Virus record (IMG/VR): IMGVR_UViG_3300005471_000011
Span: 1 to 64,000 of that record
Source: a virus
DNA length: 64,000 nucleotides
Strand: one strand, 5' to 3'
Below are positions 2,465 to 63,451 of the stretch, one piece after another (the stretch's first letter is position 1; each line of letters opens with the position of its first letter). The position numbers and the translations under genes were made by a program. Under the pieces are notes generated by a model. It did not search any database, was not told the origin of the DNA, and saw nothing but the letters and a program-made list of their open reading frames with translations.

Positions 2465-2535
2465 GTCGGGGTAGCTCAGGTGGAAGAGCGCCGCCTGTCG
2501 CAGTCGTGGTCGCGGGTTCAAATCCCGCCAGCCTT
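2465..2535 (+). tRNA. tRNA-like unit 1 (Asp-GTC-like loop, defective anticodon stem)
   Basis: A D-arm (GCTC...GAGC) and a perfect T-arm (GCGGG-TTCAAAT-CCCGC, 2512-2528) are present. A loop reading CTGTCGC would give anticodon GTC, but the flanking bases do not form the anticodon stem. The 5' acceptor strand GTCGGGG (2465-2471) does not pair with the bases after its own T-arm; it pairs 7/7, with one G-U, with CCCCGGC at 2596-2602 at the end of unit 2. It may be a degenerate tRNA or half of a larger tRNA-like RNA. Confidence 0.4.
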
Positions 2536-2603
2536 CGGGCTGTAGCTCAGCCTGGCCAGAGCGCGACAAGCGGAGGTCGCTGGTTCAAATCCAGCCCCCG
2601 GCT
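2536..2603 (+). tRNA. tRNA-like unit 2 (truncated anticodon arm)
   Basis: A D-arm (GCTC...GAGC from 2545) and a perfect T-arm (GCTGG-TTCAAAT-CCAGC, 2579-2595) are present, but only about 10 nt lie where a 17-nt anticodon arm is expected. Its 5' side (GGCTG, 2538-2542) pairs with CAGCC (2529-2533) across a TTCG loop, joining it to unit 1 by a short hairpin. Its 3' strand pairs with the 5' end of unit 1. No CCA is encoded. It cannot act as an ordinary tRNA as read here. Confidence 0.35.
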
Positions 2604-39111: not shown

Positions 39112-40119
39112 GTGGCAAAACAAATCACGTTCGCCCTGGGAACAGCGGGAAACCTGTCAGCGCGGACGTTGACGATCCGCGCCATGGTCAATGGGGACTA
39201 CACCGACCACCTGACCACCCAAGCGCTGGCGGGCACGGTCGAGGAAGCCACGGCGGTGATCCCGGACGACTTGAACTGTGAAGCGGTGCTGATCGACCGC
39301 CGCAGCGAGTTCACGATGGCACCGGTGGTGCTGCATTTCGTGACGTCTTCGCAGATTTACCGGGATGTTCAAAGCTCCGCCGCGCCGCGATCCATCAGCG
39401 CGGGCATGCTGCGGATCGTGGACGTGGAGGAGTTGAGCGAATCGTCGGCCAGCTCGCTATCGACAAGCACGCTGAGTTCGGTCAGCAGCAGCAGCACGAG
39501 CACTTTGAGCAGCAGCTCGACAAGTTCTGTCTCCAGTAGTTCGTCCAGCCTCAGTTCCGTTAGCTCTTCCAGCAGCACTCGCAGCTCACTCAGTTCCGTT
39601 AGTTCGTCTAGCTCTAGCCATTCGACGAGCAGCGTCTCAAGCCCCAGCTCGGCCAGCAGCAGCTCGACCTCTTCGGTGTCGAGCAGCAGCAGCAGCCGGT
39701 CCACGGCATCCAGCGTGTCCAGCAGTTCCACGAGCACGCTTACGAGTTCCAGCGTCAGCTCGTCCAGTACATCGACTGTGTCAAGCTCCAGCTCAAGCAC
39801 GACGCAGACGATCAGCAGCAAATCCACGCTGTCCAGCTCGACTCGCAGCAGCAGCTCGTCCGTTACCGCGTCGAGCTTGTCGAGTTCGAGCACTTCATCC
39901 GTGTCAAGCAGCAGCTCCTCGCGCAGCCGCTCCAGCGTCAGCACGGCATCGTCATCCTCAACAAGCAGCCCTTCCACCCTATCCTCGTCGTCGAGTTCTA
40001 CGTTCAGCACTGCCTCGTCCAGTTCGAGCAGCGCCTCGTCCAGTTCGAGCAGCGTTTCTTCGTCAAGTTCAAGTACATCGTCGCTCAGCTCATCTTCGAG
40101 CAGCGTCGGCGACCTGTAG
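39112..40119 (+). CDS. Serine-rich repeat protein, probable virion component, 335 aa
   Basis: Residues 1-110 form a small beta-rich domain (FALGTAGNLSARTLTIRAMV). Residues about 112-333 are an almost pure Ser/Thr/Val tract of SSSSSTSSVSS-type units, whose codons are mixed (AGC, TCG, TCC, AGT) so the DNA is less repetitive than the protein. GTG start. A two-residue acidic-Leu end closes it. Likely an extended stalk, perhaps O-glycosylated; that is inference. Confidence 0.75.
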   Translation: MAKQITFALGTAGNLSARTLTIRAMVNGDYTDHLTTQALAGTVEEATAVIPDDLNCEAVLIDRRSEFTMAPVVLHFVTSSQIYRDVQSSAAPRSISAGMLRIVDVEELSESSASSLSTSTLSSVSSSSTSTLSSSSTSSVSSSSSSLSSVSSSSSTRSSLSSVSSSSSSHSTSSVSSPSSASSSSTSSVSSSSSSRSTASSVSSSSTSTLTSSSVSSSSTSTVSSSSSSTTQTISSKSTLSSSTRSSSSSVTASSLSSSSTSSVSSSSSSRSRSSVSTASSSSTSSPSTLSSSSSSTFSTASSSSSSASSSSSSVSSSSSSTSSLSSSSSSVGDL

Positions 40120-52611: not shown

Positions 52612-52929
52612 ATGGTCACGTGGAAAATCTATTACGGGGACGCGAGCACGTTTTCCAATGAGGACGGGCCGCCTGAATCTGCGCCATGCGGCCGAGTCAT
52701 CTGCGTAGCGTTCTACGACGAGGACAATCGCCGCAAACTCTGCCATCAAGCGGACTTCTACATCTGGGACAAAGGCCGCTGGTTCTCCGCCAGCGATTCC
52801 GGTTTCTGGCAGTACATGGGCGAGCCAGGTTTCAAGGTCGTGAAGTTCGGCCGTGAGATCGGCGACTTGGAATACCGGCGGATCATGTCGGCAGCAATGA
52901 ACGACCTGCCGCTGGAGAACGCCGACTAA
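52612..52929 (+). CDS. Hypothetical phage protein, 105 aa
   Basis: The pattern WKIYYGDASTFSNEDGPPES...GRVICVAFYDEDNRRK...YIWDKGRW.ADSGFWQY occurs in small phage proteins near tail genes, of unknown role. GGAGGCGCAGC precedes the ATG. TAATG overlap with the next gene. Confidence 0.6.
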   Translation: MVTWKIYYGDASTFSNEDGPPESAPCGRVICVAFYDEDNRRKLCHQADFYIWDKGRWFSASDSGFWQYMGEPGFKVVKFGREIGDLEYRRIMSAAMNDLPLENAD

Positions 52930-55421
52930 TGACATGCCCGGCCGCATTCAACCAGAAAGCTTTTCGCGGCCGAAACGACGACGGCAACGAGACGACTGCC
53001 ACCTGGAAGGCGAACCAGAACACCAACTGGACGCAACTCGTTGACGTCAATTTCCGGGTGCGGTTTGAGATCCAGGAGACGGCCGCTTGCGCGGGGGCCA
53101 ACAAGGTTTGGCGCCTGCAATACAACCGCAATTCCGCTGGCTGGGTTGACGTCAGCGGTTCCAGCAACGTCGTGCGCGCATCCGCGTCCGCGAATTTAGC
53201 GGACGGTGCAAACCTGACCGACCAGCTCACGGTTGGGACCGGGACGTTCATCGGCGCGACTGGCTTCGACGAAGTGGACGGCAATGCCGGCGGTGCCTCG
53301 ATGGACGTGGCCGCGTCCGGCCATTCGGAGTGCGAGTTTTCCGTACAACTGCGCTCGGCCGATGTGTCGGACGGCGACGCGATTCAGCTTCGCGTCAGCG
53401 ACGCCGGGACGGCAATCGCCGCATACGATGCGACGCCTAGCATGACCGCAGACGTGCAAAGCGCCAGCTCTGCAAGCTCGGTCAGCAGTTCCAGCACCAG
53501 CAGCATTTCATCGTCCTCGACGAGTTCTGCGTCATCATCGTCAACGAGTTCCGCAAGCTCAGTCAGCAGCTCTAGTACCTCGTCGGCAAGCTCCAGCAGC
53601 ACGTCGTCAGCCTCAAGTGTTTCCAGTTCATCAACCTCCAGCGCCAGTTCTGTTTCGTCGGAATCATCTTCCAGTACGAGCAGCGAATCTTCGTCGAGCA
53701 CAAGCACGGCCAGCTCACTGTCTTCATCATCAACTTCGTCGGCCAGCTCGGTATCAAGCAGCAGTTCTAGTACCTCGCAGAGCGCCGGCGGTACCAGCTA
53801 TCGTTACGTCATCACGCGGCGGACGACGCGGTTCCTGTACGAGGAATATCCGCTGCCAAGAACAGCCGCGGATCGCCTGGCACCACAGGAGGAAGAAAGC
53901 AGCAATAGTTCTAGCTCGACCTCCAGCGCAAGTTCTTCGTCAACGTCTAGCGCTTCGTCCTCAAGCACGAGCACGGAATCATCGAGCGTCAGCAGCTCCT
54001 CGACATCCACGGCTTCAAGCAGCTCAACCTCGTCGGCGTCGTCGAGCAGCACGAGCACCGCTTCCTCGCTGAGTAGCGAATCCAGCGTCAGTTCGGTTTC
54101 GAGTTCCTCTACTAGCAGCGAGTCATCAAGCAGTACGTCCTCGGCAAGTAGTATTTCGTCATCGAGCACCAGTAGCGCCAGTTCTGTTTCCAGCAGCTCA
54201 ACATCCTCACCGACAAGCGAATCCAGCGCTAGTTCGGTGTCCAGCTCCAGCGTCAGTAGCTCATCCACCTCCAGCGAATCATCTTCCAGTACATCGTCGA
54301 TCAGCTCTAGCTCCACAAGCACTGCCTCCACAAGTTCTTCTGGCGTTGGCCCAACCATCGTTTATGTGGTGATCCGGCGAACCATGCGGTTTGCTAAGCC
54401 GGAAGATGATCGCTCGGACGCCGTCATCGTCGAAACGACTGTTGTCGAAGATGAGGAGTCGAGTTCATCCACAGCCAGCAGCGTTTCTTCGTCGAGCACA
54501 AGTTCCGCCAGCTCCAGCTCGACATCCACTGTTTCTTCATCCTCGACCAGCTCGGCAAGTTCGGTCAGTTCGGTCAGTAGTAGCTCCACTTCATCCGCTT
54601 CTTCAAGCAGCACGTCGAGCGTCTCAATCGCCAGTTCGCTGAGTTCGGTTTCCAGCTTATCGACATCAAGCATCTCGTCGTCTAGCACCAGTACCGCGAG
54701 TAGCAGCGTTTCATCCTCTAGCACTAGCAGTGCGAGCAGCAGCTCGACATCCAGCGCATCCTCAAGCAGCACGTCAACGCAAAGCAGCTCAGTATCGAGT
54801 TCTTCTACGTCGAGCATTTCAAGCAGCTCTACGTCGTCGATCAGCTCTAGCTCAACGTCAACCGAAAGCAGTTCCCAGTCGGTGGACGAGTCAACGTCCA
54901 GCACGCGATCTTCGTCCAGCACGTCGAGCATTTCGAGTTCATCGACCTCCTCCGCATCGTCGATCAGCTCCGTCAGCAGCAGCTCGACCTCCAGCGTTAG
55001 CTCGGCATCCTCCGCCAGCTCGTCTAGCACGAGCACCGCGTCGAGTTTGTCCAGCTCCTCAACGTCCTCGGTCAGCAGCGTTAGTTCTGTTTCAAGTTCA
55101 AGCACCTCAAGCGTCAGCAGCGCATCGACGCTCAGCTCCTCTTCGACGAGTTCAATCTCCAGCCTGTCCTCGGCCAGCTCGCAAAGTTCCTCCAGCACCA
55201 GCTCGGCAAGCAGTTCCTCGACAAGCAGCATCTCCTCATCGAGCACGAGTAGCCTGTCTTCTCAAAGCAGTTCCAGCCTTTCCACGAGTTCCAGCTCCAG
55301 CGGTTTGGGATTGTTTCCGGCCTGCGCAGGTGCTACAAGGGTTGGGATTGCTCACGCGGGAGCACGACGGGTAGGACCATACACTGCGGGGGCGCAGCGC
55401 AAGTCGGAGGAACGCGAATGA
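52929..55421 (+). CDS. Long serine-rich repeat virion protein, 830 aa
   Basis: Residues 1-175 are a folded beta-rich domain (WRLQYNRNSAGWVDVSGSSN). Three Ser/Thr tracts (about 176-290, 325-470 and 515-790) follow, separated by two short similar modules, TSYRYVITRRTTRF and TIVYVVIRRTMRF. The C terminus is a small Gly/Ala/Arg segment (ACAGATRVGIAHAGARRVG). The repeats contain SSSTSS-, ASSS- and VSSS-type units with mixed serine codons. Antisense frames over these tracts are artefacts. Likely an extended stalk or fibre on the virion. Confidence 0.8.
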   Translation: MTCPAAFNQKAFRGRNDDGNETTATWKANQNTNWTQLVDVNFRVRFEIQETAACAGANKVWRLQYNRNSAGWVDVSGSSNVVRASASANLADGANLTDQLTVGTGTFIGATGFDEVDGNAGGASMDVAASGHSECEFSVQLRSADVSDGDAIQLRVSDAGTAIAAYDATPSMTADVQSASSASSVSSSSTSSISSSSTSSASSSSTSSASSVSSSSTSSASSSSTSSASSVSSSSTSSASSVSSESSSSTSSESSSSTSTASSLSSSSTSSASSVSSSSSSTSQSAGGTSYRYVITRRTTRFLYEEYPLPRTAADRLAPQEEESSNSSSSTSSASSSSTSSASSSSTSTESSSVSSSSTSTASSSSTSSASSSSTSTASSLSSESSVSSVSSSSTSSESSSSTSSASSISSSSTSSASSVSSSSTSSPTSESSASSVSSSSVSSSSTSSESSSSTSSISSSSTSTASTSSSGVGPTIVYVVIRRTMRFAKPEDDRSDAVIVETTVVEDEESSSSTASSVSSSSTSSASSSSTSTVSSSSTSSASSVSSVSSSSTSSASSSSTSSVSIASSLSSVSSLSTSSISSSSTSTASSSVSSSSTSSASSSSTSSASSSSTSTQSSSVSSSSTSSISSSSTSSISSSSTSTESSSQSVDESTSSTRSSSSTSSISSSSTSSASSISSVSSSSTSSVSSASSASSSSTSTASSLSSSSTSSVSSVSSVSSSSTSSVSSASTLSSSSTSSISSLSSASSQSSSSTSSASSSSTSSISSSSTSSLSSQSSSSLSTSSSSSGLGLFPACAGATRVGIAHAGARRVGPYTAGAQRKSEERE

Positions 55422-60353: not shown

Positions 60354-60863
60354 TTGGAATCGAACGGAAAGAGCCTCAGCGCCGGCTGCCGCAAGCGGCG
60401 CAACATGCCCATGCAGGACGGGACGCATGTGGAGCTTTACGCTCTGCTGCTGACCGATTTAGCGTTTCTTCAGGAAGAAGCGGCGCACGCCAGGCGCAGG
60501 GAGCTGATCGAAACCTACGTGCGGAATATCGACCTGCTGCCGGATACAATGTCGCCGGAGCAAAAGCTGGAAATCATCAAGGACGCTTTCAGGCGTGCGG
60601 AGGATATTCGCGCCGACACCATCGGCATTGCTGGCGGTGATCAGTGGGCGGACAACACGATGCGAGGGTTGCTCACGCAAATCTGGGTCAGCCTGCGACC
60701 GGGCATACCTGGATTGACGTTTGACCAGACCGCCGAGATGTGGTCCCAGCGCAGCCGCGAAGAGGTCCAGGCAACCGCCGCAGCGGTCCAGGAGATAAGC
60801 AAGCCAACCCTGGGAAACGCATTGCCCCCGGCGGAGATGGCTCCGGCGGGGGCGGGCCGATAG
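60354..60863 (+). CDS. Tail assembly chaperone, short form (gpG-like), 169 aa
   Basis: TTG start with GGAGGAGCC 8 nt upstream. Helical protein (EQKLEIIKDAFRRAEDIRAD; AEMWSQRSREEVQATAAAVQ). The stop at 60861-60863 is bypassed in part by the -1 shift at 60812-60818. In lambda-like phages this short form and its extended form bind the tape measure. Confidence 0.75.
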   Translation: MESNGKSLSAGCRKRRNMPMQDGTHVELYALLLTDLAFLQEEAAHARRRELIETYVRNIDLLPDTMSPEQKLEIIKDAFRRAEDIRADTIGIAGGDQWADNTMRGLLTQIWVSLRPGIPGLTFDQTAEMWSQRSREEVQATAAAVQEISKPTLGNALPPAEMAPAGAGR

Positions 60864-61162
60864 CCTGGGCCAGAATCTTTCGCACGATCTACGTCGAGTC
60901 AATGGGCCGCGTGCTGCCAAACGACCTGGAGCAGCTCACGCTGGACCAATTCTTGATAACATGGCTGAGCAATGAGGAGCTTGGCGCGGGCAAGACGAGC
61001 TTCACACCGGAGGAAGCAGCGGAGAAAGGACTGGACGTGGAAGTGGGCGGCAAGACCGGGGTGCAAATCGCGCTAGAGAAAGCCGCCAAGAAGCGGCGCG
61101 CCGAGGCTCGCGCAGCGCGGATCGCCAAGCGTGCGGCGCGCAAGGAGGTCGCCAATGGCTGA
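60354..61162 (+). CDS. Tail assembly chaperone, frameshift-extended form (gpGT-like), about 269 aa
   Basis: A -1 shift on GGGAAAC (60812-60818) joins 155 residues of the short form to 114 residues encoded up to 61162 (GPIAWARIFRTIYVESMGRV; LDQFLITWLSNEELGAGK), ending in a basic, Ala-rich helix. This is the T part that links the chaperone to tail tube subunits in lambda. The ATG at 60740 in this frame is not a real start. Confidence 0.75.
60812..60818 (+). promoter_or_regulatory. Programmed -1 frameshift site
   Basis: G GGA AAC lies exactly in frame with the short form, the X XXY YYZ class used by lambda G/GT (GGGAAAG). About 7 nt downstream GCCCCCG can pair with CGGGGGC around a 16-nt loop, a likely stimulatory hairpin. 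Confidence 0.85.
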
Positions 61163-62429
61163 CATGCTGGGCGAAGCCTACGTTGTCATCCGCGCCAGCA
61201 TGGACAAGGTGCGCGGCGACTCCGCCAAAGCAGGCGATGAGATCAAGCGCAGCCTGCTACAATCGCTGACAGGTTTTGATCTGCCGGAAGGCATTTCCCC
61301 GAAGATGATTGCCGGGGTTGGCGCTGCTGCGCTGGCAGCGGCCGGTGCCTATGGGGTGTTTCGGACGGCCCAAGCCGAGTGGAACGAGAACATCAAGGAA
61401 GGCACAAAGCTATCCGAGGAGTTCAGTAAAGCTGAGGCGCGGCGGCGGGCGGCGCTGGAGGTCAACAGCCGAGTCGGGTTCAACGTCAGCGAGCTGCGAG
61501 AACAGGCCAAGGTCATCGACGACGCAGTTGCCGGTTCCAAAGCGAAGATCACGGAAGCCCAAACTCAACTGTTGGCTTTCCGAAACATTCAAGGCGACAA
61601 CTTCAAACGGGCCACGAAGGACGCGGTGGATTTGGCGGCGGCGATTGGCTCGGACTTGCCATCGGCGGCGCATCTCTTGGGGCGTTCGCTGAGCGATCCG
61701 GAGCGCGGCATGATGCATCTACGCCGGGCAGGCGTGCTGCTGACGGATACTCAACAGAAGCTCGTGCGGCAGTTCGCCGCCGCCGGCCAATCGGCCAAGG
61801 CGCAGGAAGTCTTGCTAGGCGCCCTAGAAAACCAATACGGCGGATTCGCTGAGAAAGCCGTGCGACCATTAGACCGCCTGAAAAGCGAGCTGGAAGACGT
61901 GCGGAGAAAGATCGGCGACATCATGCAGGAGCGAAAGCCGCTGCTGCTGCAAGTAGAGATTGCTTTCGCGCATGGACAATTGGGGTTGGAGGACGAAGTC
62001 CAGAACCTTCTCACGCCGTTGTCGAAGGCGCTGAACACGACCAGCGACAAGCTGATCAATGGACTAATCGAAAACTCAGCTCGGACATGGGTGATGCTCC
62101 AATCTATGTTTTTTGGTCCGGCTGGCCCAGCAATGATTCTACTTGGAAGGCTGCAACGTGCTCGTCAAAAGCAGTTCGCAGATGCGATGCCGGGCAAGGA
62201 TGGTCATGGCGGTTTGGCACCAGAACCTCCAGAGCGGGAGACGCCGCAGGGAGTCTTCACCGCCATCCAATTATCTAACAAGCTCGACGAAATATACCGC
62301 GGCGACAACCAGCGGAAACTTCTGGATCTGACGGCTGAGGGCAACCAGATCGCCAAGGACGGGTTCAGCACTTTGGCCGAACGACTGAAGCCGCAGAACG
62401 ATACCATCCCCGTCGCGAGGCCCCGATGA
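61155..62429 (+). CDS. Tape measure protein, short, 424 aa
   Basis: ATG 61155 overlaps the end of the extended chaperone. Long helical sequence with a hydrophobic segment near residues 50-70 (MIAGVGAAALAAAGAYGVF) and coiled-coil stretches (EEFSKAEARRRAALEV; LKSELEDVRRKIGDIMQ). Position after G/GT is diagnostic. At 424 aa it predicts a short tail, on the order of 60 nm by the usual 0.15 nm per residue rule. Confidence 0.8.
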   Translation: MADMLGEAYVVIRASMDKVRGDSAKAGDEIKRSLLQSLTGFDLPEGISPKMIAGVGAAALAAAGAYGVFRTAQAEWNENIKEGTKLSEEFSKAEARRRAALEVNSRVGFNVSELREQAKVIDDAVAGSKAKITEAQTQLLAFRNIQGDNFKRATKDAVDLAAAIGSDLPSAAHLLGRSLSDPERGMMHLRRAGVLLTDTQQKLVRQFAAAGQSAKAQEVLLGALENQYGGFAEKAVRPLDRLKSELEDVRRKIGDIMQERKPLLLQVEIAFAHGQLGLEDEVQNLLTPLSKALNTTSDKLINGLIENSARTWVMLQSMFFGPAGPAMILLGRLQRARQKQFADAMPGKDGHGGLAPEPPERETPQGVFTAIQLSNKLDEIYRGDNQRKLLDLTAEGNQIAKDGFSTLAERLKPQNDTIPVARPR

Positions 62430-63451
62430 CCGCAACCTCGGAGCTAACTCGTTCGCGCTTCTCGACGCCAAGGGGGATCAAGTACGCGCTGACCAAGGGG
62501 CCGGACTTCCAGCGCGAAGCGCACGGCAAGACAACGGCCGAAGCTACCTATCGGGTTTACGGGCGGCAGGTATTGGACTTTATCGACGAGATGTTGCCGC
62601 TGCCTTTCATCCGGGACGGCAAGATCATCCAGCCACAGATAACAAGGATAAGAAATACCGTCAGCCAGGCCGGCGGCGGATATCTGTCAGCGGCGCGAAT
62701 CAGTTCCGTCGCGATGGCGGAGCCGGATGGCATCGGGATTATCGATCCATTCAAGCTAGATACGAATGCGGACAGTTTGACAAACGGCCATCAGACCTAC
62801 AGCCGCTATGCGCTGGTGACGATCCAGTACGAGAGCAACATTGACGCGGCGTGGAGCGGCGACCGCACCAACAAGGATGACCCGGTTCGGTTCCTGGACA
62901 TGACAGTTGGTGCGAATTTTGAGTTCTATTCCATCAAGTCGAACAGCAACTTACTCGGAGCCTCTCCTGAATTATCCGTGTCCGCCGGTGCGGCAGTCGC
63001 AACTCCGATCAAAGACCTGACCGCTCCAGTCGTCTATTTACGTCCGCTGGTCGAACACACTGGCCATTGGGCCTGGGCCGTGAACCCAAACTTCGGAAAA
63101 ATATGGGAGCAACTTGGCTCGGTCAATTCGAAGAAGCTGAGCTACATCAAGGATGCCGAGCCGGAGACGGTGATGTTCATGGGGATCGCTGGCAGGCAGG
63201 AATACCGCCATGCCGGGAACTCACGGACGCTTCGCACGTGGGCGCTTGATTTTAGGTTTCTTCAGCGGCAGATTCGCGCACCGGCAATCGTCAACGGACT
63301 GGAGTCAACGGTGCTCTGCGGTTGGAATCACACCTACGATGCCAGCACGCAAAGCTTCATCCGGCTGTATCGAAGGCCAAGTCCAAACGCTTCTCGCGTT
63401 CCTCTGTATCGGCTTTCCGACTTCTCTGACCTCTATGAGACTGGGCCATAA
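62426..63451 (+). CDS. Tail protein after the tape measure, 341 aa
   Basis: ATGA overlap with the tape measure gene. Beta-rich protein (DPVRFLDMTVGANFEFYSIK; HTGHWAWAVNPNFGKIWEQL). The position suggests a distal tail or baseplate-hub component; sequence evidence alone is weak. Confidence 0.55.
   Translation: MTATSELTRSRFSTPRGIKYALTKGPDFQREAHGKTTAEATYRVYGRQVLDFIDEMLPLPFIRDGKIIQPQITRIRNTVSQAGGGYLSAARISSVAMAEPDGIGIIDPFKLDTNADSLTNGHQTYSRYALVTIQYESNIDAAWSGDRTNKDDPVRFLDMTVGANFEFYSIKSNSNLLGASPELSVSAGAAVATPIKDLTAPVVYLRPLVEHTGHWAWAVNPNFGKIWEQLGSVNSKKLSYIKDAEPETVMFMGIAGRQEYRHAGNSRTLRTWALDFRFLQRQIRAPAIVNGLESTVLCGWNHTYDASTQSFIRLYRRPSPNASRVPLYRLSDFSDLYETGP

Follow-up and report, generated by a model that had tools for sequence, protein, structure and literature searches.

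Bacterial Y RNAs of the YrlA family (Rfam RF02553) combine a basal stem, which holds the Ro60/Rsr protein, with a tRNA-like domain, to which PNPase binds and which DusA and TruB modify (PMC8394870). It has been proposed that the tRNA-like domain competitively inhibits an anticodon nuclease (PMC7790460). In CKA15, a relative of the Listeria phages A511 and P100, abundant RNAs have been reported and are suspected of being Y RNAs (PMC12282133). In the YrlA effector module the parts of a tRNA appear in permuted order, as a T-arm, a closed acceptor-like hairpin and a D-arm, resulting in mimicry of a tRNA that has no anticodon; copies of YrlA exist also in phages. Tandem or overlapping tRNA genes of phages, the tRNA-like domain of tmRNA, and arrays of capped tRNA-like modules next to RtcB, RtcR and Band_7 genes in bacterial chromosomes are further systems with which the RNA analysed here can be compared. 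It lies near the start of a stretch of 64,000 nucleotides (the window), taken from a 104-kb virus record with terminase, portal and RecT genes. A two-headed tRNA-like RNA is not described in the literature searched, which did not extend to the principal Y-RNA papers and therefore limits any claim of novelty.

By inspection of the sequence, two tRNA-like units with whole D- and T-arms stand in tandem. An earlier note on this DNA proposed that their outer acceptor strands pair with each other, that neither unit has an acceptor stem of its own, and that the inner strands form a separate capped hairpin. All three proposals hold: the outer strands form seven of seven pairs (one of them U-G), the units' own acceptors reach only 3/7 in the first and 2/7 in the second, and the hairpin carries a cUUCGg cap. 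Neither unit contains an anticodon stem with a 7-nt loop; instead, the two linkers pair together as CCGC-c-TGTCGC / GCGACA-a-GCGG (4 bp, a C.A mismatch and 6 bp, -19.3 kcal/mol), which adds a third swapped element. The topology is that of two tRNA tops placed back to back on a common helix, one open and one capped. The open head comprises the acceptor stem with the true 5' and 3' ends, the first D-arm and the second T-arm, and the capped head comprises the first T-arm, the tetraloop hairpin and the second D-arm (Table 1); the acceptor stem, D-arm and T-arm of a tRNA are all present, with arms drawn from both units. Judged from these pairings, the open head is a normal tRNA shell, and the capped head is predicted to be circularly permuted, with a tetraloop capping its acceptor stem, as happens in the Y-RNA effector module. 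The inter-head helix, the capped head's likeness to a bacterial Y RNA and the absence of Ro60 (see below) had escaped the earlier note. The discriminator position is occupied by U and CCA is absent from the 3' end, which makes CCA addition and aminoacylation doubtful. Neither unit is called by ARAGORN or by Rfam at gathering thresholds, and a scan for promoters and terminators gave no signal above chance.

Table 1. Positions of the features discussed in the text; coordinates are those of the window unless a locus is named.
Feature	Position	Strand	Evidence
Entire two-headed tRNA-like RNA, 138 nt plus discriminator-like T2603	2465..2603	+	Covariance model R1 (123 bits), covariation, folding
Open head, 5' acceptor strand GTCGGGG, partner 2596-2602	2465..2471	+	Helix 1: 94.5% of cells paired, two-sided changes in 7/7 pairs
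Open head, D-arm GCTC-AGGTGGAA-GAGC	2474..2489	+	Folding, covariation
Inter-head helix, 5' strand CCGC-c-TGTCGC (linker 1), in the place of the anticodon arm	2491..2501	+	Helices 3-4, shuffling
Spacer AGTCGTGGTC preceding the first T-arm	2502..2511	+	YrlA match, register comparison
Capped head, T-arm GCGGG-TTCAAAT-CCCGC	2512..2528	+	Folding, YrlA match, covariation
Capped head, acceptor-like hairpin CAGCC-UUCG-GGCUG	2529..2542	+	Helix 6: two-sided changes in 5/5 pairs
Capped head, D-arm GCTC-AGCCTGGCCA-GAGC	2545..2562	+	YrlA match, covariation
Inter-head helix, 3' strand GCGACA-a-GCGG (linker 2)	2563..2573	+	Pairing, covariation
Open head, variable region AGGTC, 5 nt	2574..2578	+	Folding, alignment
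Open head, T-arm GCTGG-TTCAAAT-CCAGC	2579..2595	+	Folding, covariation
Open head, 3' acceptor strand CCCCGGC, no encoded CCA after it	2596..2602	+	Sequence, pairing, covariation
Rfam RF02553 (YrlA) match below threshold, 41.4 bits (cut-off 69), model positions 18-91	2499..2572	+	Rfam search
Extra tRNA-shell RNA of a Bacteroides prophage	L126 2558-4287	-	
Extra tRNA-shell RNA of a Bacteroides prophage	L146 4356-4616	-	
Extra tRNA-shell RNA of a Bacteroides prophage	L065 1128-1467	+	
Chromosomal capped-module arrays	L071 ~960, L085 ~6740, L076 ~6390, L116 ~970, L088 ~3540, L119 ~6980		

Judged from this one sequence, the pairings are only modestly above chance. When the strands are shuffled, full 7/7 acceptor pairing arises in 4.8% of cases and a linker duplex of the same quality in 3%, and with such a composition-matched chance of about 3-5% per stem a single sequence proves little; the whole fold has a z of -3.8. 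The unconstrained minimum free energy fold (-70.1) keeps the outer stem, the first D-arm, the inter-head helix and both T-arms and refolds the capped hairpin and the second D-arm, which when enforced give -64.6. Support for the predicted capped head thus comes from comparison, with two-sided changes in all five pairs of its helix, and not from energy. The inter-head helix also has an alternative register, in which GTCGT (2503-2507) could pair with GCGAC (2563-2567); it is the less stable of the two (-55.4 vs -63.9 kcal/mol for the main one) and the nearer to YrlA geometry. Folding both halves jointly rather than separately gains 16.4 kcal/mol in the window and 9.4-20.2 kcal/mol in its relatives. 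In 150 ordinary adjacent tRNA pairs the gain averages 0.9 kcal/mol and does not exceed 8.8 kcal/mol, so that joint-fold energy sets the two-headed class apart from them.

Relatives were sought in viral contigs and cellular genomes with patterns anchored on the D- and T-loops and blind to the acceptor and linker sequence. In the chains analysed, viral contigs and Bacteroides prophages contribute 15 distinct sequences whose outer pairing, 5-7/7, is higher than the own pairing of each unit. Six more consist of tandem units of which one or both keep their own acceptor, and two fit neither class clearly. As outer pairing served to assign the classes, it was a selection step, and the inter-head helix stood outside it. 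In an alignment of 13 distinct sequences (A1) the two-headed structure has 92.2% of its cells paired and two-sided changes in 26 of 40 pairs, with a covariation score of 0.537 vs at most 0.156 for slid-partner controls. Such changes affect 7/7 acceptor pairs, 5/5 hairpin pairs and 7/10 pairs of the inter-head helix, which was not used for selection and is 75-81% paired. The ordinary two-tRNA fold, imposed on the same alignment, leaves its acceptor helices 45.5% and 41.4% paired, i.e. at the background of the slid controls. A usable anticodon loop is present in no two-headed member, and some relatives are called by tRNA finders as tRNAs with long inserts. The search of other genomes has turned up compensatory changes in all three swapped stems, and comparison of relatives establishes the two-headed fold where the single sequence could not. 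It is highly probable, on this comparative evidence, that the locus specifies one RNA of about 140 nt, in which two tRNA top halves face apart and are joined by a helix that replaces the anticodon arms; the single RNA with two D/T modules and one open acceptor stem that the earlier note envisaged agrees with the comparison.

The relatives comprise ten further distinct virus records and Bacteroides genomes, where the copies adjoin phage-type genes (that of B. xylanisolvens sits amid them). The complete genome of B. xylanisolvens XB1A contains the RNA, with an expected length of about 133 nt. A covariance model (R1) finds a single copy, at 124-133 bits, in 5/99 Bacteroides genomes and a match in 1/395 Bacteroidota. 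No two-headed RNA was found with it in 398 Pseudomonadota genomes, once matches near 85 bits to ordinary tandem tRNAs had been set aside; these span 164-174 nt, as ordinary tandem tRNAs do, so that for any R1 score under about 90 bits the pairing has to be checked. The Listeria phages A511 and P100 contain no two-headed RNA (best score 54.8 bits). DNA similarity to known phages is confined to ordinary tRNA stretches, a DNA similarity query with one relative (L030) gave one partial match, a similarity search of plasmids gave none with a query possibly not centred on the RNA, an exact-motif search for near relatives of the subfamily formed by the window and L011 returned L011 alone, and no syntenic relative was found via the neighbouring 596-aa protein. 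Unrelated members have no neighbour gene in common, which is as expected for an RNA that acts on host proteins; exceptions are the Bacteroides group and three loci (L010, L013 and L057) with a few common phage genes, the large terminase among them. The two-headed RNA is a rare, phage-borne element.

Among the nearest described systems is YrlA, whose effector module (T-arm, closed acceptor-like hairpin and D-arm) is present in the window RNA. The match is limited to part of the 114 positions of the Rfam model and stays below its gathering score; matches of 19-41 bits occur in 10/11 two-headed virus records, G023 being the sole one without. The basal stem that binds Ro60/Rsr is absent; in its place the ends of the RNA build a complete tRNA shell, made up of D- and T-arms and an acceptor stem that is left open. 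No Ro60 (TROVE) gene was found in any of the 11 two-headed virus records, the 104-kb record of the window included; since virus records may be fragments, this absence is not proof. Viral loci with a UUCG-capped module, which served as a control, are mostly one-headed, and 26/40 such records encode Ro60; the contrast with two-headed records has p = 9e-5, and p = 0.001 for records longer than 40 kb. Bacteroides genomes G031-G034, which bear the RNA, are without TROVE/Ro60, and the host genome G030 encodes it. The two-headed form thus resembles a Y-RNA effector domain in shape, yet is not classed as a Y RNA. One-headed UUCG-capped permuted modules have been identified in about 50 viral contigs (L208-L260) of up to 512 kb. 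A 120-kb viral contig (L022, record G019; 60468-60874 and 61615-62553) contains a TROVE gene and, within the roughly 1.2 kb upstream of it, three tandem YrlA-like modules, which together likely constitute a phage Y-RNA array with its own Ro60.

The outer shell corresponds to tRNA (RF00005) in its 7-bp acceptor, D-arm, 5-nt variable region, T-arm and canonical loops, and differs in having a second head of about 70 nt instead of an anticodon arm and no encoded CCA. The tRNA-like domain of tmRNA likewise consists of a tRNA top with a long helix in the place of the anticodon arm, but the window RNA has a D-arm and a second head and lacks the tag reading frame and pseudoknots; ARAGORN finds no tmRNA in the window, and the Rfam tmRNA model matches a T-arm only. 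Ordinary tandem or overlapping phage tRNAs (L005, L034, L035) exhibit the same D-T-D-T order and short spacing, but each of their units has its own acceptor (6-7/7) and an anticodon stem of 4-5 bp, which the window units do not. In L005 (3432-3569) and L035 (about 1029-1163) the tRNA genes overlap, in that some bases belong both to the 3' acceptor strand of the first and to the 5' strand of the second. Tandem tRNA-like units with their own acceptors, short anticodon stems and loops of about 4 nt occur in Motilimonas and one more genome (L149, 3544-3676; L164, from 1182). The same type of capped permuted-elbow module recurs in chromosomal arrays of Flavobacterium, Sphingobacterium, Acidovorax, Pseudoalteromonas, Chryseosolibacter and Clostridium, which adjoin Band_7, RtcB or RtcR genes, in some cases with a sigma-54-like promoter. 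These arrays differ from the window RNA in carrying several capped modules on a longer transcript, probably driven by sigma-54, with no open acceptor stem closing them. Their scanned loci give no Y-RNA family match above cut-off, and among the array-bearing bacterial genomes searched only that of Flavobacterium encodes Ro60. Their position beside RtcB, RtcR and Band_7 points to the same area of biology as the competitive-inhibitor role proposed for YrlA.

Degenerate tRNAs are frequent in phage tRNA clusters, and the locus could in principle be a recombination scar or a pair of tRNA pseudogenes, decayed or frame-shifted, with strands that match each other by chance, as the per-stem chance level of the single sequence would allow. 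This explanation is most improbable and, on the comparative evidence, already contradicted, as the swapped pairings carry compensatory changes in the 13 aligned sequences, the own pairings lie at background, and the five Bacteroides genomes keep one intact copy each. As the design recurs in several Bacteroides genomes and in no fewer than 11 unrelated virus records, and each swapped stem shows compensatory changes, we reject the recombination product that the earlier note had offered among its possibilities; the same design in different sequences from at least ten other phages and prophages looks like a real tRNA mimic and not like two broken tRNA genes, and "tRNA mimic", also offered there, is the correct category. 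Very unlikely, too, is a precursor from which the middle is excised like a tRNA intron, leaving the outer shell as a working tRNA. The shell by itself makes a good tRNA body, an Asp-like GUC loop could be present in the 5' linker CCGCCTGTCGC of the window, and the Rfam tRNA model treats each of the RNAs of L126 and L065 as a single tRNA that contains a long insert; the insert, however, folds as a conserved second head and is no intron, an anticodon-like loop is missing from other members (e.g. L030, ACCGTGTGTGGTGG), identity elements are inconsistent, and RtcB, the would-be partner, is absent from all virus records and patchy in hosts.

Two further alternatives concern function, and we regard both as unlikely. 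According to one of them, the RNA is a Ro60-type Y RNA with a fortuitously tRNA-like basal stem, which tethers PNPase to a Ro60-like ring encoded by the host or by a part of the phage that is missing. The YrlA match of the capped head, the TROVE/Ro60 genes in many phages with one-headed modules and the module array upstream of TROVE in G019 agree with it; the sub-threshold score, the tRNA shell in place of the Ro60-binding stem and the lack of TROVE in the 11 virus records and in G031-G034 do not. According to the other, which has a similarly low probability, the RNA serves anti-defence, as a dedicated sponge for an abortive-infection toxin of the host by which tRNAs are cut or capped via the acceptor or elbow. 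It would fit a phage-borne RNA with no dedicated protein partner, the anticodon-less tRNA shells that adjoin it in Bacteroides prophages, and the role of anticodon-nuclease competitor proposed for the YrlA tRNA-like domain (PMC7790460); on the other hand, no defence gene or toxin is linked to the RNA, and anticodon nucleases require the anticodon arm that it lacks.

The reading we prefer as a whole, a two-headed architecture together with a Ro60-independent decoy or adaptor function, appears rather probable; its functional part, a decoy or adaptor during infection or lysogeny, is put forward tentatively. By analogy with the biology of tRNA and YrlA, RNase P would trim the open head, to which CCA might then be added, and each of the two elbows would be modified and bound by enzymes that recognise a tRNA by its elbow and acceptor and not by its anticodon. 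The RNA would then occupy, or bring together, two such proteins during infection or lysogeny and act outside translation, as a decoy or adaptor independent of Ro60; candidate targets are host nucleases such as PNPase and enzymes that process, repair or damage tRNA. The decoy suggested in the earlier note may be regarded as a live hypothesis, against which it counts that two heads are not required of a decoy. In its fullest form, which is possible though somewhat speculative, the RNA would be a two-ended tRNA-elbow mimic, i.e. a Y-RNA effector head mounted on a tRNA shell and freed from Ro60, which seizes or bridges host tRNA-handling enzymes with the neighbouring anticodon-less shells. So read, it would represent a previously undescribed class of phage RNA, serving counter-defence or a takeover of RNA decay and repair. 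If this is true, tRNA mimicry by RNAs of bacteria and phages would reach further than Y RNAs and their partner Ro60, and there would be a compact natural RNA that shows two tRNA elbows simultaneously. It raises the testable question of which host factor reads an anticodon-less tRNA elbow and why phages carry such an RNA, and suggests that many "degenerate tRNAs" of phages are functional structured RNAs overlooked by annotation.

Several other elements accompany RNAs of this type. The sole tRNA called by ARAGORN in the window, "tRNA-Thr(agt)" at 2707-2788, has a 15-nt anticodon loop (CTCG-CCTAGTTGACGAAAA-CGAG) and one additional base in the T-arm, and is probably a further anticodon-less tRNA shell, not a decoding tRNA. 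The spacer between it and the two-headed RNA (2604-2706) contains one closed fold (CTGGCGG/CCGCCAG) and may be an additional degenerate tRNA-like RNA. Bacteroides prophages with the two-headed RNA also encode extra RNAs with good tRNA shells and abnormal anticodon arms, which have a 4-nt loop, a 15-nt loop, a loop able to pair with the variable arm, or an insert of about 90 nt. Elsewhere in the window, two ORFs (39112-40119 and 52929-55421) contain long Ser/Thr-rich low-complexity repeats (SSSSTSS...) and possibly encode virion or tail-associated proteins.
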